Origin: Candidatus Saccharimonadota bacterium
GTDB lineage: Bacteria > Patescibacteriota > Saccharimonadia > Saccharimonadales > Saccharimonadaceae
Assembly (NCBI GenBank): GCA_009783305.1
Contig: WRHJ01000001.1
Span: 186,001 to 250,000 of the forward strand
Reading direction: 5' to 3'
DNA length: 64,000 nucleotides
The notes below the pieces were generated by a model. That model did no database searches and had not been told where the DNA came from. It saw nothing but the letters and a program-made list of their open reading frames with translations. The first letter of the stretch is position 1. Each line of letters begins with the position of its first letter. This document shows, in pieces, positions 6,749-35,957 of the stretch. A program made the translations under genes and the position numbers.

Positions 6749-9226
6749 TTATTCTGGTTTAGATTCGGCTAGTTTGAGCCGAGTTTTATCGAGAGTAACA
6801 GAAGCGATAATGCCGGGTTGCAGGGTGCCGTCGAGAATCTTTTCGGCCAGAAGAGATTCGAGTTGATCTTCGATGGCGCGGCGCAGGGGTCGGGCGCCGT
6901 TTTTGGGGTCGAAGCCAATTTTGATGAGATAGTTTTTGACCTGGGTGGAAAGTTTTAGGCCGATGGATTTGGCGGCGAGGCGTTTTTTTAAATCTTCGAT
7001 CAGGTTGTCGAAAATCTTATTGACGTCTTTGCGAGTGAGGGCGTGAAAGGTGACTATGGCGTCGAAGCGATTGACGAGTTCGGGACGCATAATTTTTTTG
7101 AGGGCGCGCATGGCGGCGGCTTTGTTTTGTTCATGTTCAGCTTCGAGATCTTTGGTGTCTTTTTTGTTGCGGGCGCTAAAGCCGAGTTCAGATTCGCGAT
7201 ACATGTCTTCGGCACCGAGGTTAGAAGTGAGGATGACGATGGTATTATTGAATTTAATTTTGTTGCCTTGGCCATCGGTGATTAGGCCGTCTTCGAGAAT
7301 CTGCAAGAGCATATTGAAGACGTCGGGGTGGGCTTTCTCAATTTCATCAAACAGAACTACAGAATATGGACGGCGGCGGATGGCTTCGGTGAGTTTGCCA
7401 CCATCGTCGTAGCCAACATAACCGGCGGGAGCGCCGACGAGACGACTAACATTGTGTTTTTCGCCAAATTCAGACATATCGATCTTAATCAGGGAGTTTT
7501 CACCACCAAAAACTTCTTTGGCGATGACTTTAGCGAGTTCGGTTTTACCAACGCCAGTTGGGCCAAGGAAGATAAATGATCCAATCGGACGGTTGGCGCT
7601 GGCGATGCCGGAACGGCCGCGGCGGATGGCTTTGCTGACAACTTTGATGGCTTCGCCTTGACCAATAATTGATTTTTCAAGGTGAGATTCGAGTCGGTTG
7701 AGCATTTTCTGCTCGCTGCCATGAACTTTGCTGACCGGGATGCCGGTTTTGAGACTGATAGCTGTGGCAAGATTATCAAAATTGAGCTCAGGGACTTTGG
7801 GTAGATTCTTAGTGTCCTTTTCGAGCTTTTTGATGGATTCGTTGACTTGCGCTAAGCGAGTTTTGTAGAGGGCAGCTTTTTCGTAATCTTGTAGTTCGGC
7901 GGCCATTTCGATTTTTTGACTAATTTCGGCTTGTTCGATTTTGTATTTTTTGTAGAGGCTGCCGCCTTTTTTGTCGACCGAAACACGGGCGATAGCGGAA
8001 GCCTCATCGATAACGTCGATGACTTTGTCAGGCATAAAGCGATCGTTGATGTAGCGATTGGACATATAAACAGCTTGCTCAAGAATATCATCGGGGATGG
8101 TGACTTGGTGGTGAGATTCGTAATGGTTTTTGATGCCCTTAAGGATGCGCAGCGTAATGGTATCAGAAGGTTCTTCGACTATGACAGTCTGGAAGCGGCG
8201 ACTGAGAGCTTTGTCTTTTTCGATACTTTTGCGGTACTCATCTAGCGTAGTGGCGCCGATGAGGTTGAGGGTACTGCGAGCAAGGGCGGGCTTCAAAATA
8301 TTGGCGGCGTCCATGCTGCCTTCGGCCGAGCCAGCGCCATTGAGCAAATGCAACTCGTCAATGAAAAGAATAACTGATTCATCACCAACGGCTTCATCGA
8401 TGATGCCTTTGATGCGTTCTTCAAATTCGCCGCGAAATTTAGTACCAGCTACTACAGAGGAAAGGTCGATTTGGTAAATATGTTTACCGATGAGTTTGCC
8501 AGGAACGTTGTTTTTGGCAATGCGGGTAGCGAGGCCTTCGACAATGGCAGTTTTGCCAACGCCGGCTTCGCCGATGAGGACGGGATTAGATTTAGTGCGG
8601 CGACAAAGCACGGTGATAGCGCGTTCAATTTCTTGATCGCGGCCAATGACAGTATCGAGTTTACCGCGGGCGGCATCATCAGTGAGGTCGGTGCCGTAGC
8701 GGTTGAGCCAGCGGAAATTGACTTTTTTACCGGCTTTTTGTTTGATCTTTTCGACTTTGGCTTCTTCGGCTTGTTTTTCAGCGAGGTCTTCAATGTGACC
8801 GGCTAGCTGACCAAGATTGGCGCCGACTTGAGTTAGCAATACGGCAGCTTTGGAGTTTGGTTGACGAATCAGGGAATAGACGATGTGCTCAGTACCTATA
8901 ATTTCAAGGCCGTTTTCGCGGGCGAAATTCATGGACATGCGGAGGGTGAGCACGGCAGATTCGCTAAGCGACATCATGGCCATAGGAGAAGCAGGAACGT
9001 CGACGGCGACTTTGCCTTGGGCTTGCTCGACTTCGTTGAGATTAACGCCTTCGTCGCGGAGAAATTTAGCACCGGTAGAGACATCTTGTGCCAGAACTCC
9101 CATGAGGATATGTTCGGTGCCCATATAGCCCTGGTTGTAACGCTTACTGAAGAAGTCGGCTTTTTGGAGTGCGAAGCGAGCATTCTCGCTTAGGTGATTC
9201 ATAATTTCAGAAAATTCATCCATCAT
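6749..9226 (-). CDS. clpC: ATP-dependent Clp protease ATP-binding subunit ClpC
   Basis: About 825 residues from the ATG at 9226, the first of a tandem ATG-ATG; upstream codons lie in the promoter. Domains in order: double Clp_N repeat (1-145), AAA1 with Walker [10 protein letters not shown], Walker B ILFIDELH, a short UVR/M-type coiled coil ([16 protein letters not shown] region), AAA2 with [12 protein letters not shown] and [14 protein letters not shown], and the ClpP-docking LGF loop in SELGFSARN. ClpC unfolds substrates and feeds them to ClpP. It has its own TTGACA/TACAAT promoter under a CIRCE-like element, matching clpP, so the two should be co-regulated although separated by the HELLH gene. 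Confidence 0.95.
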
Positions 9227-29168: not shown

Positions 29169-29732
29169 TTAGTAGTCTATACCTATGATTGCTAAGCTGC
29201 CTTGATCATAAGGATGTTTGAGCTTAGTCATGCTAGTAGCATAATCGACGAGTGGCAACAGGTCTTTGGAGAAATTACGGCCTGTCAGACAAAGATGGGT
29301 GCTGGGATGACGAGTTTTGATCAAGGTCCTTAGTTGCGACTTGGTAAGCAGACCGTCGTGGACGGCGTTGTTAATTTCGTCGGCGATCACTAAGTCGTAA
29401 TCGCCAGATTGGGTACGAGTGAGGACATCTGCGTAAGTATCGGCAGCAGCTTTATGATGCTCGGCCTTGCTCACCTCTGTTAGCGGAGGTTTGACCTGCG
29501 CTTGATCTTTTGCGTAATAGAATCCCTTGCCGCCTTTATGGAGATATATTTTGCTGCCATAGATTTGTTGAAGAGCAGATAGAGTTTGGTCTTCGGATAC
29601 TGCCCAGGCTTTAATGAATTGGATGAACGCAACTTTAAAATCAGCGCCAAGCGCCCGCAAGGCAAGGCCCAAAGCAGCTTCGGTCTTCCCTTTTCCGTCG
29701 CCGGTAAAGACAATTACGCTTGATTGAGCCAT
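29169..29732 (-). CDS. cobO: Cob(I)alamin adenosyltransferase, CobA/BtuR type
   Basis: The 187-residue protein begins with the CobA/CobO/BtuR P-loop TGDGKGKTEAALGLALRA (residues 10-27) and includes the family Asp-Glu segment DLVIADEINNAVHDGLL (about 113) and LTGRNF (about 148). The enzyme transfers adenosine from ATP to cob(I)alamin, making adenosylcobalamin, the cofactor of the class II ribonucleotide reductase at the head of this operon. Its start overlaps the thioredoxin gene by 19 nt. No cobalamin synthesis gene is present, so it serves salvage. A small palindrome (29473-29490) lies inside the coding region. Confidence 0.92.
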   Translation of the reverse strand: MAQSSVIVFTGDGKGKTEAALGLALRALGADFKVAFIQFIKAWAVSEDQTLSALQQIYGSKIYLHKGGKGFYYAKDQAQVKPPLTEVSKAEHHKAAADTYADVLTRTQSGDYDLVIADEINNAVHDGLLTKSQLRTLIKTRHPSTHLCLTGRNFSKDLLPLVDYATSMTKLKHPYDQGSLAIIGIDY

Positions 29733-30019
29733 GATACGAGATTAGGCTTAGTCACGATGCCGGTTTTTTGTCCAATTAATTTGCCGTCTTTATAAAGCAG
29801 TAGGGTTGGCAGGGTTGTGACGCCTAATTTTTGACCGAGTTCCATGTTTTGGCTGATATCAACTTTGCCAATTTTTACTTTGCCGGTAAATTCTGGGGCG
29901 GTCTGGTCTAAGATTGCGGCCATGCGCGGGCATTGGCTGCACCATCCTGCCCAAGCATCGACGAGCACCATGCCCGAGCTGACAAATCCTTGATAGTTAT
30001 CTTTATTTAATTCGGTCAT
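29714..30019 (-). CDS. trxA: Thioredoxin
   Basis: About 101 residues from the ATG at 30019, preceded by GAAAGG. The thioredoxin fold is clear, with active site WCSQC (about residue 26) in place of the usual WCGPC, followed by cis-Pro in TTLPTLLLY (about 70). The changed dipeptide should alter redox potential. Within this operon it is the obvious reductant for the NrdJ C-terminal cysteines. It overlaps both neighbours (17 nt upstream, 19 nt downstream). Confidence 0.93.
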   Translation of the reverse strand: MTELNKDNYQGFVSSGMVLVDAWAGWCSQCPRMAAILDQTAPEFTGKVKIGKVDISQNMELGQKLGVTTLPTLLLYKDGKLIGQKTGIVTKPNLVSWLNQA

Positions 30020-30575
30020 GGAGCGCTGCCTTTCTTTTGTTAGTGATATATGTGTTTGCGTATTGGTAAGCAATGAAGAGCGTTAGCGAGTAAGTGAGAT
30101 CACCTAGTATGGTCCACTTTAAAAATGGTAAGGCATTGATATAGCTGGTAATTTGTCCTGCCAAAGTATGCGGATACATAACTGGTCCGTTGCCACGATA
30201 GAGGAAGACACAGTTAGTAATGAGATAAAATACTAAACTAGCTGCTAGCGAGGTGCCGATGGTGCGTCCCACGCTGTATTTTTTGCGGAGGTAGAACCCA
30301 ATGAAGAAACAAATGAGAAATGAACCGTAAACGATTAAGCGTTGATGCCAGGCGTAGCTCGGCAGGAAGAAATCTGCGATGATCATGCCGATGAGCGGGA
30401 TGGATGCTGCCCATTGGCGGTGGCGGAAGAAATATGCGGAGAACAGAGCTACGGCGGCAACTGGGGTGAAGTTGGGCAGATGCGGTAGTACTCGTGCTGC
30501 TACGATCAGCAGCACTAATCCTAAGGCAACTCCTAAATCAATTAGAAGGCGTCGTCTAGATCGGTGAGTACCCAC
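30003..30575 (-). CDS. DUF6580-like membrane protein, possible cobalamin ECF S component
   Basis: The 190-residue protein starts with GTG (GGAG 8-9 nt upstream) and has five to six membrane segments. Family-like motifs are LPNFTPVAAVALFSAYFF (about 31-48), IIADFFLPSY and WTILGDLTYSLTLF near the end. I relate it to DUF6580, a family similar to substrate-binding (S) components of ECF vitamin transporters. Position between a transcobalamin-like protein and the adenosyltransferase suggests cobalamin as substrate. That is inference. The ATPase and T subunits are not in the window. It overlaps the upstream gene by 34 nt. Confidence 0.7.
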   Translation of the reverse strand: MGTHRSRRRLLIDLGVALGLVLLIVAARVLPHLPNFTPVAAVALFSAYFFRHRQWAASIPLIGMIIADFFLPSYAWHQRLIVYGSFLICFFIGFYLRKKYSVGRTIGTSLAASLVFYLITNCVFLYRGNGPVMYPHTLAGQITSYINALPFLKWTILGDLTYSLTLFIAYQYANTYITNKRKAALHDRIK

Positions 30576-30958
30576 TTTATCTCATCTCCTTCCTGTGCCT
30601 CATAAGTGCCGGCGCCTTCGTTGGCGTAGTCGTCATTAATATAAAATGCCCAATAATGTGTGTCGCCAGCTTCATGTCCAGCAATTGCAGTCACGAAACC
30701 ATCCCAGGTTGGGTGCAAATCTACTCCGCATAAGCTTTGTAAAGTGGCTAGTGCGGTCTCGCCGACTACGCCCTCATATTCTACTGTTACTGGATCTATT
30801 TTCACGACTGGACAAAGCGGGCCAGGCAGGTTGGCTACTGGACTATCGGGCTTACTGATAATCAGCGCTATTGCTACGATTCCCATCGTTAACAGCAAGG
30901 CAATAATACCGGCAATGATAGTCTTTTTGCTAGTTGAAGTTTTTTTATTATCTTTCAT
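30542..30958 (-). CDS. Membrane-anchored DUF4430 (transcobalamin-like) protein
   Basis: About 138 residues from the ATG at 30958, which has AAGGAGG 8 nt upstream. A Lys/Ser/Thr-rich N-terminus and one membrane helix (about 14-37) anchor a small extracellular domain. Family features are VGETALATLQSLCGV, HYWAFYINDDYANEG and EGDEIKWVLTD, which fit DUF4430, related to the beta domain of eukaryotic transcobalamin and intrinsic factor. DUF4430 proteins often accompany cobalamin-type ECF transporters in Firmicutes. Here it would capture corrinoids at the surface and hand them to the membrane protein encoded next. Confidence 0.78.
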   Translation of the reverse strand: MKDNKKTSTSKKTIIAGIIALLLTMGIVAIALIISKPDSPVANLPGPLCPVVKIDPVTVEYEGVVGETALATLQSLCGVDLHPTWDGFVTAIAGHEAGDTHYWAFYINDDYANEGAGTYEAQEGDEIKWVLTDLDDAF

Positions 30959-30986
30959 TTTTAACACCTCCTTATAGTGTTTATTT

Positions 30987-33794
30987 TTATGAACATCCGC
31001 TGGTGCTGCCGCACAGCTCGCAAATATGGCAAGAGCCGGCAGGCCGCATTTTTACGCCGCAGCTAAGGCAGAGGGGGGCATCACCATCGTCATTGGCCAA
31101 GTCGGCAGTTGAATGCACCTCTTTGGTTGATTCGATGTTAAGTTCTAGTTTGGTTTGCTTGTCGGCAGCAATTTGATTTTCTTCGGCTGATTTTTCAGGC
31201 GTGAAGGATTCAGGCAATGGTTCGTAGACGCCGGTGTCAATGGCATGCAGGCGTTCAGTTGTGGAATAGACGCCATAGCCGCTGCGGACATCAAACGGCA
31301 GGTGGTCGAGTGCGAGGCGGCGGAAAATATAGTCGACGAGGGACTTGGCAAATGGGATGTCTGGATCGTCAGTCATGCCGGCAGGTTCAAATTGCATATT
31401 GGCAAATTTTTTGACGTAAGTTTCCAGCGGTACGCCATATTGTAAGCCTAGCGATACGCAAATAGCTAAGGTATCCATGATTCCGGATAGTGTGCTGCCC
31501 TGTTTGGATAGTTTGACGAAGAGTTCGCCGAGATCGCCATCTTCGTGTACGCCGGAGGTCATGTAACCCTCGGCTCCACCGACACTAAATGAATAAGTAT
31601 GGCCAACGCGCTTGCGCGGCAGTCGGCGGCGAGTGAAGACTTGGCCTTGCGCGAGAGCTACGACGTTGGTATCTTCTTTGTCCTTTTTATCACTGAGCGG
31701 CTGGCTGGCTTTGCAGTTGTCGCGATAAATGGCGATGGCTTTGAGGCCTAGTTTCCAACCTTGCAGGTAGATTTCTTTGACGTCTTCGACAGTGGCGTTT
31801 TCGGGCATATTGACAGTTTTACTGATGGCGCCGGACAAAAATGGCTGCACAGCCGACATCATCTGGATATGGCCCATTGGCTTGATGGCGCGCTGCCCAA
31901 CGGCACAGTCAAAGATGGCATAGTGTTCCGGTTTGAGATTGGGGGCATCTACAGCTACGCCGGTGTCAGTGATGTGGTTGATAATAACCTGGATTTGATC
32001 TCTGTCATATTCTAAAGTAGTCAAAGCGCGCGGGATGGACTGATTAACGATTTGCATAGAACCGCCGCCAACTAATTTTTTGTATTTGACCAGACTGAAA
32101 TCTGGCTCGATGCCGGTGGTGTCGCAGTCCATCATGAAACCGATGGTGCCGGTGGGCGCGAGCAGGCTGGCTTGGCAGTTGCGGTAACCGCACTGTTGGC
32201 CAATTTCTAAGGCCTCTTGCCATTGTTCGCTGGCAGATTCAAAGATATCGTTGAGATTGACATGGACTTCTAGTCCGTCGGAATTTAGAGCGGCGGCTTC
32301 GGAAGCGCTGGCATGTTTTTTGATGATTTTCAGTTGATCTTTAGCGTTGCGCTCGTAATTTTTGTACGCACCAACGGCACCAGCCATTTCGGCGGAGCGG
32401 CGATAGGCGGCGGCAGTCATCAAACTGGTGATGCCGGCGGCAATGGCGCGTCCTTCGTCAGAATCGTACGGTACGCCTACGGTCATAAGCAGAGCGCCGA
32501 GGTTGGCATAGCCAATACCTAGGGCGCGGAAATCTTTGGTGTTTTGGGTGATTTTATCAGTTGGGAATTCACCAAAAGTAACCGATATGTCCATAGCGGT
32601 GAAGATAACTTCTACGGCGGCTATGAAACGTTTGGCATCAAATTTGCCATCGTCCTTGAGGAATTTGAGTAAGTTTATGCTGGCCAGGTTGCAAGAGGAA
32701 TTGTCGATAGACATGAATTCTGAGCAGGGGTTGCTGGCGGTAATTTTGCCTTCTTTGGGTATAGTGTGCCAGTTATTGATGATGTCATCGTACTGAATGC
32801 CTGGGTCGGCGCAGGCCCAAGCAGCTTCGCATAATTTATCCCAGATATCGCGGGCTTTATGAGTTTCGATGGGCTTATTGTTGGTGCGGGCAAGTAATTC
32901 AAAATCGCCATCGGCTTCAACAGCGCGCATAAATTTGTTGGATACGCGGACGGAGTTGTTAGCATTTTGATACTGCACAGAGTAAGTGTCTTTGCCGTCT
33001 ACGCCCATGTCGAAACCGGCGGCTTGCAGAGCGCGGATTTTTTCTTCTTCGTGCACCTTGGTATCAATAAAATCTAAGATATCGGGATGGTCGACGTCGA
33101 GTACGACCATTTTGGCAGCGCGTCGGGTGGCGCCGCCGGACGCAATGGTCCCGGCGGATGCATCTGCACCTCGCATAAATGATACGGGTCCAGAAGCAAT
33201 ACCGCCGGTGCTAAGTCCTTCTTTGCGGGAACGAATTTTGGACAGGTTGACTCCCGCACCTGAGCCGCGCTTGAAGATGCGGCCCTCTTCTACATACCAA
33301 TTCAAAATGTCTTCCATGGAATCGTTGACGGATAAGATGAAGCAGGCGGAAACTTGTTGCGAGGCGCCGGTCGCGCCCACGTTGAACCAGACTGGAGAGT
33401 TAAATGAGAAATACTGGTGCAGCAGCATCCAGGTTAATTCATCACTGAAGATTTCGGCGTCTTTTTTACTGGCAAAATATTTGCTGTTGATGCCGCAATT
33501 GACATATTCTTTGACGACACGGTCAATCAACTGCTTGAGAGATTTTTCGCGATCTTTGGTGCCCAGTTTGCCACGAAAATATTTACTGGCTACGATTTGC
33601 GTAGCATTAATACTCCAAAAATCTGGGAACTCCACGCCCTTTTGTTCAAAATTGACTTTGCCATCACGCCAGTTAGTCATGACGACATCGCGTTTTTCCC
33701 ATGTGACTTCGTCGTATGGGTGCACGCCAGCGGTAGAAAATGTGCGCTTGAACTTGATTCTGCCGTGCTCGCGCACGCCGTCTTGCTCGGGCAT
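30987..33794 (-). CDS. nrdJ: Adenosylcobalamin-dependent (class II) ribonucleotide reductase
   Basis: The 935-residue protein has the large NrdJ layout. Key features are QQVSACFILSV (first redox Cys, about 146), the specificity region around 240-260, the thiyl-radical signature NPCSEF (about 365), the MAPTG-like LLAPTGTIGF and a C-terminal Cys cluster (CLSCGVKM, CHICELCGSTSGCS) that relays electrons from thioredoxin. It reduces ribonucleotides using adenosylcobalamin and needs no oxygen. It leads an operon with cobalamin uptake, thioredoxin and adenosyltransferase genes. The start has AAGGAGG 10 nt upstream. Two NrdR-box-like palindromes flank its promoter. Confidence 0.96.
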   Translation of the reverse strand: MPEQDGVREHGRIKFKRTFSTAGVHPYDEVTWEKRDVVMTNWRDGKVNFEQKGVEFPDFWSINATQIVASKYFRGKLGTKDREKSLKQLIDRVVKEYVNCGINSKYFASKKDAEIFSDELTWMLLHQYFSFNSPVWFNVGATGASQQVSACFILSVNDSMEDILNWYVEEGRIFKRGSGAGVNLSKIRSRKEGLSTGGIASGPVSFMRGADASAGTIASGGATRRAAKMVVLDVDHPDILDFIDTKVHEEEKIRALQAAGFDMGVDGKDTYSVQYQNANNSVRVSNKFMRAVEADGDFELLARTNNKPIETHKARDIWDKLCEAAWACADPGIQYDDIINNWHTIPKEGKITASNPCSEFMSIDNSSCNLASINLLKFLKDDGKFDAKRFIAAVEVIFTAMDISVTFGEFPTDKITQNTKDFRALGIGYANLGALLMTVGVPYDSDEGRAIAAGITSLMTAAAYRRSAEMAGAVGAYKNYERNAKDQLKIIKKHASASEAAALNSDGLEVHVNLNDIFESASEQWQEALEIGQQCGYRNCQASLLAPTGTIGFMMDCDTTGIEPDFSLVKYKKLVGGGSMQIVNQSIPRALTTLEYDRDQIQVIINHITDTGVAVDAPNLKPEHYAIFDCAVGQRAIKPMGHIQMMSAVQPFLSGAISKTVNMPENATVEDVKEIYLQGWKLGLKAIAIYRDNCKASQPLSDKKDKEDTNVVALAQGQVFTRRRLPRKRVGHTYSFSVGGAEGYMTSGVHEDGDLGELFVKLSKQGSTLSGIMDTLAICVSLGLQYGVPLETYVKKFANMQFEPAGMTDDPDIPFAKSLVDYIFRRLALDHLPFDVRSGYGVYSTTERLHAIDTGVYEPLPESFTPEKSAEENQIAADKQTKLELNIESTKEVHSTADLANDDGDAPLCLSCGVKMRPAGSCHICELCGSTSGCS

Positions 33795-33860
33795 GATAAA
33801 TTAACCTCCTTGATTTACCTTAGATAGATGTTTGTTTGTCCCACTCAACATTGGGTCAAA

Positions 33861-33876
33861 ACACTATATATGGTGT
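33861..33876. promoter_or_regulatory. NrdR box 1
   Basis: ACACTATATATGGTGT differs from the NrdR box consensus ACACTATATATAGTGT at one position. It lies just downstream of the predicted nrdJ transcription start. Confidence 0.75.
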
Positions 33877-33885
33877 TTGATTATT

Positions 33886-33914
33886 AGTGTATAGCGCTAT
33901 ATATAGCGTGTCAA
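33886..33914 (-). promoter_or_regulatory. nrdJ operon promoter
   Basis: TTGACA (33909-33914), 17 bp, TACACT (33886-33891) on the minus strand. NrdR box 2 fills the spacer and box 1 begins about 10 nt downstream of the -10. A leader of about 85 nt follows with AAGGAGG. I see no cobalamin riboswitch in it. Confidence 0.6.
33894..33909. promoter_or_regulatory. NrdR box 2
   Basis: GCGCTATATATAGCGT is a palindrome matching the CTATATATAG core of NrdR boxes. It is 33 bp (about three helical turns) from box 1, a typical paired arrangement. Confidence 0.65.
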
Positions 33915-33920
33915 GCGTTT

Positions 33921-35957
33921 TTAGCGTGTATTATTTACAACGGATACTTCAAGCGGTTTGATATTGATGGGCGTGGTAATGATAATGTCGGTACCACCAG
34001 CGGAGCGAGGAGTGGCGGAAATATTGCCGCCAGTATAGGTAAGGATGAGGCGGTCAAGGAAGAGGCTTAAGCCGAGACCTTCATAGCCAAAGTCGACAGC
34101 AGATTCGGCGCGGGAGAAGGGCTTAAAGAGTTGGTCAAGCTTGGCGGGATCAATGCCGCGGCCATTGTCGCTAACTTTGACGCGGATGGTCTTGCTTTGC
34201 GGGTGGCTGGAAATGGCGATGTGGCCGCCAGAGTTGGAGAATTTGATGGCATTGTCAAGGACGGAATTAATGACGAAGGTGAAGAGCGATTCGTTTTGGG
34301 TAAGGGATATGTTGCCGACCGAGTTTTGGACAGTGATTTTTTTGTCAGTGAGGCGAGTTTGTTCATTGGCAATGACATTGTCGACAGTAGTTTTGAGATT
34401 GAAGGTGGTGGCGCCGCGATTGCCGCCGGTTCTGACAAACGGCAGGACGACGAATTTGCTATAAACGTCTTTGAGGCGAGAAAGGCCGTCGGAGTAAAGA
34501 GTGTAAGGTTTGGAGGGCGGGTAAGATGCGTTGTTGACGCGGAGAGAATTTAGAGCAATGCCAATTTGGGCAGTTTGTTGTTCGATGAACTGATTGCGGG
34601 TGTCGTCAATGGCGCGTTCGTGAGCAATGAGGGCGTCTTTCTCTTGACGGAGTTTCTTCTGAATATGATAATTGCGGACGATGAGATAGAGTGCAACGAT
34701 AAAGGCGATGATGATAAATAACTGGAAGAGAGCGTTGGTAATACCGATTTCGCGATCACCAACCACACCGATGAGGAAGTTGATGATGAGGGTGAGGACG
34801 ATAGAAAGGACGATAGGCACCCAGAAGAAGCCGGAACGCCAAAATGGTTTGGGTTTGGCGACGGATGGTGCGGCGGGAGTATTTAGTGATGCGTTGGTCT
34901 CGGTAGAAGCGAGGCTGCTGCTGATTTGATCGCTGAGGGTTTTGAGAGCTTCGTTTAAGCTATTGGAATCTGCCCGGGTAATGTCGCCAGAGCCAATCAT
35001 GAGAGGGATACTGTCTTTCATGGTGGCGATAGGTGTGCGGAGATAATGGGAGGCGAGGGCCATAAAGTTCTCTTTTTCTTCTGCAATACTCTGTTCGCGT
35101 TTGTAGAAAGCCATAAGACGGCGTTTGTAGAGATACTCTCGGATAGATTGCGGTATGGGGATAAGGATGAAGATGAGAGCGAGTATAAATATGTAGAGCG
35201 GGAGCTGATTGACGACATCAGCGGGTAAATCGCGGAAGAAATCTTTGATGAAGTCTGGAACAAGACTGACGAGGAAACGGCCAAAATCTTGGAGGAAGTC
35301 AGGAAGATTTTTGAGCGGAGGCTCTTGCGGAGTAGGAGTGGGAGCGGGAGGAGTAGGCGGCTGCGGAGTGGATTGGCGATAGCAGTTGCCGTCAGCAGTG
35401 CGATAATAACCTTCTGGGACTACAGTTTGAATGCCAGGAAGGTTGGGGCAAAGATCATCGTCACTGGTATCAGGTGGTTCGGGAATACAAGAGTTGGTAT
35501 CTGGATCTAGGGTATAGCCGTCTGGTACGGAAGTTTGGACGCCAGGAAGGTTGGGGCAAAGATCAACTGGCGGGGTGGGTGGGGTAGGCTGGCGGTAGCA
35601 GTTACCGTCAGAAGTGCGGTAATAACCTTCTGGGACCACAAGTTGGATGCCTGGTAGATTGAGGCACATGTCTACGGGGGGCGGAGGAGGATATACGCAA
35701 TTACCGCCGCCATCGATAATCATACCAGGGGGGACTGATGGTTGGATGCCAGGCAGGTTGGGACAAGCATCGAAGGGCGGCTCAATTGGGTTTGTGATTT
35801 CAAATCCGATTTGGATATCGTTGGAGCCAGCGTATACAGTATTTATAAATAATAAAAGTGGCGTGACGATAAAAAGGAGGACTAAGCCCAAACTGCCAGC
35901 CCTTATTTGCCGATGACGATGTGATTTTTGGTTGGTGTTTGTTTTGTGGACACGCAC
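33921..35957 (-). CDS. Sensor kinase-like membrane protein with four extracellular Cys repeats
   Basis: The 678-residue protein has an N-terminal signal/TM (about 20-42) and four repeats of the form CPNLPGIQ..VPEGYY....GNC (about residues 63-195) separated by Pro-rich linkers. A TM follows (about 255-275), then an H-box-like ALASHYLRTPIATMKD (about 308), two more TM helices (about 383-405 and 415-438), a coiled coil and a HATPase_c domain (DNAIKFSNSGG, VSDNGRGI, GYEGLGLSLFL). It is probably a histidine kinase sensing an extracellular cue. The H-box and ATPase are separated by membrane helices, which is odd. Start codon GTG. No regulator is adjacent. Confidence 0.75.
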   Translation of the reverse strand: MRVHKTNTNQKSHRHRQIRAGSLGLVLLFIVTPLLLFINTVYAGSNDIQIGFEITNPIEPPFDACPNLPGIQPSVPPGMIIDGGGNCVYPPPPPVDMCLNLPGIQLVVPEGYYRTSDGNCYRQPTPPTPPVDLCPNLPGVQTSVPDGYTLDPDTNSCIPEPPDTSDDDLCPNLPGIQTVVPEGYYRTADGNCYRQSTPQPPTPPAPTPTPQEPPLKNLPDFLQDFGRFLVSLVPDFIKDFFRDLPADVVNQLPLYIFILALIFILIPIPQSIREYLYKRRLMAFYKREQSIAEEKENFMALASHYLRTPIATMKDSIPLMIGSGDITRADSNSLNEALKTLSDQISSSLASTETNASLNTPAAPSVAKPKPFWRSGFFWVPIVLSIVLTLIINFLIGVVGDREIGITNALFQLFIIIAFIVALYLIVRNYHIQKKLRQEKDALIAHERAIDDTRNQFIEQQTAQIGIALNSLRVNNASYPPSKPYTLYSDGLSRLKDVYSKFVVLPFVRTGGNRGATTFNLKTTVDNVIANEQTRLTDKKITVQNSVGNISLTQNESLFTFVINSVLDNAIKFSNSGGHIAISSHPQSKTIRVKVSDNGRGIDPAKLDQLFKPFSRAESAVDFGYEGLGLSLFLDRLILTYTGGNISATPRSAGGTDIIITTPINIKPLEVSVVNNTR

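Follow-up and report, generated by a model that had tools for sequence, protein, structure and literature searches.

A Saccharibacteria operon proposed to scavenge cobalamin for DNA precursor synthesis

Introduction

Why does the gene for a cobalamin-dependent ribonucleotide reductase stand in line with genes of the DUF4430 and DUF6580 families, a thioredoxin gene and a corrinoid adenosyltransferase gene, and could such a cluster supply the reductase with its cofactor? We addressed this question in a 64-kb stretch of DNA (hereafter the window) from a Candidatus Saccharimonadota bacterium (assembly GCA_009783305.1, contig WRHJ01000001.1, positions 186,001 to 250,000). On its minus strand, positions 29169-33794 hold nrdJ, a DUF4430 gene, a DUF6580 gene, a thioredoxin gene and cobO, in this order of transcription. 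Gene identities and order, regulatory boxes, a predicted fold, the distribution of the genes and absences from the genome were computed. We conclude that the operon probably scavenges corrinoid for DNA precursors, with capture by the DUF4430 protein, import by DUF6580, activation by CobO, use by NrdJ and repression of the whole unit by NrdR. Many importers of vitamin B12 still await identification (PMC6072759; PMC5997447; all papers given by PMC number are cited for the parts of their text that were available).

Layout and predicted control of the operon

The first gene, nrdJ (30987..33794, minus strand), encodes a class II adenosylcobalamin-dependent ribonucleotide reductase of 935 aa that matched NF005122 with 1455.4 bits (cut-off 859), TIGR02504 with 597.5 bits (cut-off 399.95) and the Pfam families PF02867, PF08471 and PF12637. 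After a gap of 28 bp follows the DUF4430 gene (30542..30958, minus strand), which has an ATG start with a ribosome-binding-like AGGAGG 5′ of it; its product (PF14478, 46.3 bits against a cut-off of 23.8) begins with a hydrophobic stretch, judged by eye to be a membrane anchor, and is our proposed surface corrinoid binder. The DUF6580 gene (30003..30575, minus strand) starts with GTG, and the AGGAG site before it, of the same kind, lies within the DUF4430 gene. It encodes a membrane protein (PF20221, 149.2 bits against 27) with a predicted S-component fold, our proposed cobalamin importer. The thioredoxin (29714..30019, minus strand), with a WCSQC active site, matched PF00085 with 79.3 bits (cut-off 23.5) and scored 82.8 bits with TIGR01068, below the cut-off of 96.8; it is the putative reductant of NrdJ. 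The last gene, cobO (also cobA or btuR; 29169..29732, minus strand), encodes an ATP:corrinoid adenosyltransferase that matched PF02572 (161.6 bits against 25.7) and missed the cut-off of the stricter equivalog TIGR00708 (137.4 against 167.75). The last three junctions are overlaps of 34, 17 and 19 bp. Strand, family matches and junctions all confirm an earlier note that had placed five overlapping or nearly overlapping genes here. From this layout, the five genes are probably co-transcribed. A same-strand iPGM gene begins 31 bp past cobO, so transcription may run on beyond the five genes.

Between nrdJ and an upstream histidine kinase gene lie a promoter-like site and two boxes for NrdR, which senses dATP and represses genes for ribonucleotide reductase. 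The sigma-70-like site, TTGACA-N17-TACACT (33886..33914, minus strand), agrees with 10 of 12 consensus positions, in keeping with the one promoter proposed earlier for the genes; such sites are frequent by chance (20 in 7.2 kb, with 9.1 expected), but at this one stand the two NrdR boxes, of which the earlier note makes no mention. The NrdR box proximal to nrdJ, ACACCATATATAGTGT (33861..33876, minus strand), is an exact match, and the distal box (33894..33909, minus strand), a weaker one, sits between the -35 and -10 hexamers. Their starts are 33 bp apart, which leaves a 17-bp spacer. The arrangement resembles the NrdR regulon in its paired 16-bp boxes and in this spacer, which falls within the 14-17 bp bound by NrdR from four bacteria (PMC12051234). 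The NrdR pattern had four matches in the 64 kb (two sites on both strands) where 0.58 were expected, and the pair, with four mismatches in total, is the only one in the window. None of 200 resampled upstream regions reached its score; here and in all later chance controls for box pairs, sequences were drawn from a first-order Markov model instead of being shuffled exactly. The genome also carries a candidate NrdR gene (G000:C3:91228-91632; TIGR00244, E 1.8e-34), and a 2-mismatch box elsewhere in it (G000:C2:23202) has no partner box. No riboswitch was found within the 64-kb window, and riboswitch control of this operon was discarded.

NrdR-box pairs across the family

We searched 467,706 bases of DNA from the family for boxes 31-34 bp apart with at most nine mismatches in total. 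Pairs were confined to nrdJ, nrdR and nrdD loci, to the cobO loci L016, L018 and L030 and to DUF4430-DUF6580 loci. This DNA is enriched for nrd loci and counts some places more than once; against a fairer background, the window (64 kb) with L009-L014 (~93 kb), pairs were again found only at named sites. All six unit-bearing genomes among the 101 of the family have a pair ahead of the DUF4430-DUF6580 unit, with four mismatches in the genome of the window (G000), six in G020 and in G099, seven in G028, eight in G074 and nine in G073. The pair scores observed 5′ of DUF4430 in G020, G028, G073 and G099 were reached in none of 200 resamplings. In these four fragmentary assemblies nrdJ is on another contig and absent from the fetched stretches, and the G073 pair begins 320 bp from a contig end. 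In G074, where a reductase gene precedes the unit, the better pair (eight mismatches) lies inside the mechanically assigned start of that gene and ahead of its likely ATG.

The pairs at cobO loci L016, L018 and L030 have at most eight mismatches. A resampling test of the 450 bp upstream of cobO, made in 19 of 20 loci, gave pairs whose scores were reached in 0 of 100 resamplings for L015, L019 and L030, in 1 of 100 for L021 and L033 and in at least 23 for the other 14; the pairs of L016 and L018 stand farther upstream, ahead of a glutaredoxin gene and outside the tested region. A glutaredoxin gene precedes cobO in G020, G028, G034 and G073, with upstream pairs at 8, 10, 10 and 8 mismatches, respectively. 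Since the reductase, the binder-importer pair and the redoxin-adenosyltransferase pair form separate units under similar operators in relatives, the operon of the window looks as if parts of a single NrdR regulon had been joined in it. The targets named for NrdR are ribonucleotide reductase genes and topA (PMC12051234, PMC4409342), to which the window, unlike the regulon so described, appears to add genes for B12 uptake and activation.

Sequence and predicted fold of DUF6580

A profile of 85 DUF6580 members (A3) was compared with all sequences of the Protein Data Bank. Its sole match up to E 10 was CbrT (6fnp_A, E 3.8e-5), the cobalamin S-component of an energy-coupling factor (ECF) transporter from Lactobacillus delbrueckii; a six-member profile reached E 0.12 against CbrT, and BtuM chains were not among the matches of the A1 or A3 profile up to E 10. 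The structure prediction that the earlier note had suggested for 30003-30575 gave an AlphaFold2 model with a predicted local distance difference test score of 93.7 when the 85-member alignment was used (72.3 with six members). By VIA-align, this model was closest to BtuM with cyanocobalamin (8c7p; Z 14.9, root-mean-square deviation 2.6, 161 residues aligned) and BtuM with hydroxycobalamin (Z 14.9). ECF S-components followed over nearly the whole model (Z 14.5-11.3; BioY 14.5, RibU 13.5, FolT 13.1, ThiT 12.5). The twenty best rows were all S-components except one CbiM, and the first other fold, methane monooxygenase, had Z 8.4. BtuM, a solitary S-component-like cobalamin transporter that works without an ECF module (PMC6072759), thus has the closest solved fold. 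It differs in its invariant, essential cysteine, a cobalt ligand in loop 3 (PMC6072759), which DUF6580 is missing; membership of DUF6580 in the BtuM family was rejected on this ground.

The invariant or near-invariant residues R28, P31, H32, N35, F36, D68 and N121 lie at or beside predicted loops 1, 3 and 5, which would lie outside the cell should the N terminus be cytoplasmic; for CbrT, loops 1 and 3 have been described as the gates (PMC5997447). Asp68 and Asn121 are invariant, and the R-x-x-P-H-x-x-N-F loop is nearly so. This motif was one of two search patterns by which the named loci described below were found, so its invariance in 80 of them is biased; six sequences found by Pfam likewise show no change at the Arg, Pro, His, Asn or Phe of the motif. 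That H32 might be a cobalt ligand is a guess. Taken with its genome context, the sequence and the model make DUF6580 a very likely cobalamin importer.

Cobalamin-related genes in the genome and family

The genome of the window (788 kb, 98.46% complete) has NrdJ and neither NrdB nor NrdD. It also has no match to the B12-binding domain PF02310, and B12 enzymes lacking PF02310 were not searched for; within these searches, the earlier proposal that cobalamin serves only DNA precursor synthesis fits. PF02361 (EcfT/CbiQ) was found in none of the 101 family genomes, this one included, and in 10 of 14 control genomes. Nor did this genome match FecCD (the BtuC-type permease); BacA-like ABC (ATP-binding cassette) and other importer types were not searched for there. 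The likeness of the membrane protein to vitamin transporter S components, which the earlier note had seen, therefore holds by profile match, predicted fold and context, but EcfT of the ECF energizing module, for which the note had suggested a search, was not found, and a conventional ECF system was rejected on the absence of EcfT. With neither EcfT nor FecCD, DUF6580 must operate either by itself, as has been proposed for BtuM, or together with a further partner.

Of the 101 genomes, 19 encode PF08471 NrdJ and 20 a CobO that passes its cut-off. All but one of the NrdJ genomes (18 of 19) also have CobO, a co-occurrence with a chance of ~1e-16 when kinship is ignored. Two CobO genomes are without PF08471 NrdJ; in one of these, G088, a gene for an RTPR-type B12-dependent reductase starts just downstream of cobO, and the locus ends inside it. 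DUF6580 is present in six genomes and adjoins DUF4430 every time; PF08471 NrdJ accompanies it in five of them, against 19 of 101 overall (P ~0.0008, with no kinship correction). The sixth, G074, was a candidate counter-example, with the pair and without PF08471 NrdJ or CobO, and was dropped as such on finding an RTPR-type reductase directly before its DUF4430-DUF6580 pair. Three genomes of the same genus as that of the window (G011, G068, G094) have NrdD and no PF08471 NrdJ, NrdB, CobO, DUF6580 or DUF4430; reductase class is thus patchy in the family and varies even within a genus. Comparison of gene order in relatives gave a divided answer: the full five-gene order is found in the genome of the window only, whereas the DUF4430-DUF6580 pair and the functional set recur. 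No DUF6580 match was found in plasmids at E 0.01.

DUF6580 loci outside the family

At least 559 DUF6580 relatives came up when named genomes were scanned, and we analyzed the loci of the best 80; all counts of loci in this section refer to these. A NrdJ, CobO, PduO or BtuF-like gene is present in 36 of the 80 (in 30 when BtuF-like genes are set aside). The loci contain 45 genes of these kinds, every one on the same strand as DUF6580 and 20 of them within 125 bp. Ten loci hold nrdJ, eight of them with titles from the candidate phyla radiation (CPR; L086, L087, L107, L110, L117, L136, L141, L147) and two titled "bacterium" (L104, L139). In six of the ten nrdR adjoins nrdJ (Pfam-checked for the L086 gene). 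Six contain CobO, L107 and L147 contain PduO, and L110 and L139 have neither within the locus, so that two adenosyltransferase families occur among DUF6580 loci; a thioredoxin follows DUF6580 in L117, L141 and L147. All six NrdJ proteins tested scored over TIGR02504, with best models in three subfamilies. Elsewhere DUF6580 adjoins PduO in 17 loci, many from Xanthomonadaceae (Pfam-checked for L092), BtuF-like binding proteins in seven or TonB receptors in 13 (by similarity). BtuF-like and BtuB-like are our own labels: Pfam gave Peripla_BP_2 for L093 and L103 and TonB receptor domains for L120, L137 and L140, and the remaining genes were counted by their similarity to these.

Riboswitches were sought in 55 loci, 22 CPR or nrdJ-bearing and 33 others, picked partly after their gene content was known. 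We found 19 of the cobalamin class in 18 loci, four from the first group and 14 from the second. Every one lies on the DUF6580 strand, and 17 are upstream. One stands directly before DUF4430-DUF6580 in each of L107 and L117, one directly before a DUF4430 gene 2.3 kb from DUF6580 in L122 and one between nrdJ and the two genes preceding DUF6580 in L139. The Bacteroidota locus L160 has two (7739-7877 and 8498-8637) that flank DUF6580, one before DUF6580 and one before a TonB-receptor-like gene. As a separate observation, an SGGKDS or SSGKDS motif was noted by eye in a protein that occurs together with BtuF-like genes and DUF6580 in loci from three phyla (L093 6213-6905, L103 9564-10247, L153 5456-6229).

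Comparison with known systems

Lactobacillus delbrueckii has a cluster nrdJ-cbrS-cbrT-pduO with an ECF-CbrT transporter (PMC5997447). Like the operon of the window, it brings together a B12-dependent reductase, an S-component and an adenosyltransferase, and its CbrT is related in sequence to DUF6580. Unlike it, CbrT uses an ECF module, of which EcfT is absent here, and the adenosyltransferase is PduO rather than CobO; the available text on that cluster mentions neither thioredoxin nor NrdR control. We guess that cbrS is a DUF4430 gene. In Enterococcus raffinosus, a DUF4430 gene overlaps a CbrT-like gene as DUF4430 overlaps DUF6580 in the window, and our DUF4430 family profile aligned with this Enterococcus partner protein by hhalign at 97%. 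A DUF4430 gene also lies near rtpR in L. rhamnosus (PMC9963975). The gene combination, which had been taken as not described before, thus has published counterparts in these two lactobacilli, and the operon is a variant of a known idea, not wholly new. What seems to be new is that DUF6580 would import without an ECF module, that NrdR would control both the uptake and the activation of B12, and that the module is spread in the CPR. We found no mention of DUF6580 in the open-licence literature. Among the titles and abstract openings surveyed in that literature, and in the text consulted in PMC8406219 and PMC12239599, nothing concerned the operon in the CPR or NrdR control of B12 uptake.

DUF4430 corresponds to part of the C-terminal region of transcobalamin and intrinsic factor (PMC4350170), and the family profile weakly matched transcobalamin-2 (E 0.01) and transcobalamin-1. 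The DUF4430 protein of the window differs from these in having no large helical domain. Some CPR loci put a toroid-like protein before DUF6580. This squalene-cyclase-like toroid-repeat protein occurs in Magasanikbacteria, Falkowbacteria and others (L089 5729-7957, L095 824-2509, L139 6711-7946) and, by position and size, their sequences not having been searched, in L090, L097, L106, L154 and L155. Its Pfam score is over the cut-off only in L139, and its matches in the Protein Data Bank are cyclases, with no transcobalamin. L089 carries DUF4430 in the gene for this protein and L095 in the neighboring one, which brings together both domain types of animal transcobalamin.

Two further observations concern nearby or related genes. 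The histidine kinase upstream of nrdJ (window 33921-35957) has, in the N-terminal part of its translation, four Cys- and Pro-rich repeats around LPG-I/V-Q. Outside the window, the genome has a second DUF4430 gene (G000:C1:18989-19198; L014 6975-7376), one neighbor of which encodes an asparagine-synthase-like protein that has an F420-ligase-like domain.

Alternative explanations and proposed mechanism

Several results weigh against a corrinoid-scavenging operon under NrdR. The CbrT match covers positions 6-91 of 179, the first half only; by the caution that comes with VIA-align, a best Z near 14 is common even for helical models that match nothing clearly, and Foldseek E-values were weak (best 0.055; BtuM 0.058, with template modeling scores of 0.65/0.68). 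The invariant cysteine of BtuM has no DUF6580 counterpart, the best cysteine column (43 of 85; residue 144 in the protein of the window) being outside loop 3. Among the 18 genomes with NrdJ and CobO, 13 are without DUF6580, and these also lack FecCD and EcfT matches; another uptake route must therefore exist in the family. The second DUF4430 gene has neither an adjacent DUF6580 nor a box pair, and 35 of the 80 outside loci have none of the four gene kinds and no riboswitch, although the riboswitch scan covered 55 of the 80 and some contigs end near the DUF6580 gene. As to regulation, the candidate NrdR gene scored 118.0 bits, below the cut-off of 124.65, and single boxes are unspecific (12 forward and 13 reverse matches with at most three mismatches in the genome, against 5 and 6 for a control pattern). 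The G074 reductase scored 273.5 bits with TIGR02505, below its cut-off of 340.05 (PF02867, PF21995 and PF17975 are over theirs), and its weaker pair, at 11 mismatches, was matched in 6 of 200 resamplings.

That the genes are chance neighbors or a loosely grown operon, with DUF6580 and DUF4430 serving another ligand, would suit the restriction of the five-gene order to one genome, the 14 of 19 PF08471 NrdJ genomes without DUF6580 and the occurrence of DUF4430 elsewhere without DUF6580. We regard it as very improbable: other CPR lineages rebuild the same functional set from different gene families, cobalamin riboswitches stand at DUF6580 loci, NrdR boxes mark the DUF4430-DUF6580 pair even away from nrdJ, and DUF6580 keeps company with PF08471 NrdJ at the uncorrected frequency given above. 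We also think it improbable, if less so, that DUF6580 serves the cobalamin unit as a conventional ECF S-component that borrows an unrecognized energizing module or an unrelated ABC transporter. Its relation to CbrT, its fold, common to ECF S-components, and a gene pair in L014 of the same genome that looks by eye like ABC transporter genes (not searched) would suit such borrowing; the absence of PF02361 from all 101 genomes despite its detection in the controls speaks against it, as do the neighbors of DUF6580 in the inspected loci of other phyla, which are TonB receptors, BtuF-like proteins and PduO, with no ECF operon noticed (EcfT was not searched there). BtuM, itself identified partly through co-localization with btuB, is moreover a precedent for transport without a module (PMC6072759). 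Slightly less unlikely is the uptake of incomplete corrinoids such as cobinamide, or of cobamides with other lower ligands, in place of cobalamin itself: CbrT (PMC5997447) and BtuM (PMC6072759) bind cobinamide too, but its use would require additional enzymes.

Scavenging of corrinoid for the reductase thus remains our favored account, and from the computed features we infer that the genes are co-transcribed, that NrdR binds its boxes and that corrinoid is bound and transported, as well as how uptake is energized and which redoxin partners NrdJ. The membrane-anchored DUF4430 protein would bind corrinoid at the cell surface and hand it over to DUF6580, an S-component-fold protein that would move it through the membrane with no ECF module. 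This uptake may be facilitated, with adenosylation and capture by NrdJ providing the pull. Adenosylation by CobO would activate the corrinoid and may also keep it from leaving the cell; NrdJ would then reduce ribonucleotides with adenosylcobalamin, and thioredoxin would re-reduce NrdJ. When deoxyribonucleoside triphosphates (dNTPs) suffice, NrdR with dATP would shut the whole unit through the two promoter boxes, and vitamin import would therefore track the demand for dNTPs. The chain of binder, S-component-like importer, adenosyltransferase, cobalamin-dependent reductase and redoxin set out in the earlier note is well supported by profile, fold, context, riboswitches and box pairs.

Significance

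On balance, we also lean toward a wider statement: DUF6580 would be a widespread family whose members import cobalamin with no need of an ECF module, frequently alongside a transcobalamin-like DUF4430 binder in the CPR and with BtuB/BtuF-like proteins or PduO elsewhere. In Saccharibacteria, NrdR would co-control capture, import, activation and the reductase; some other CPR lineages would use cobalamin riboswitches instead. A family without an assigned function, with at least 559 relatives, would thereby gain a specific job in many phyla. For CPR bacteria, few of which have been cultured, the results suggest that some lineages perhaps depend on scavenged B12 for DNA synthesis. If our reading is true, a B12 uptake pair in the NrdR regulon extends this regulator beyond the reductase genes and topA named in the available literature, and uptake of the vitamin would be governed by the need for an end product, the dNTP pool, and not by the level of the vitamin.

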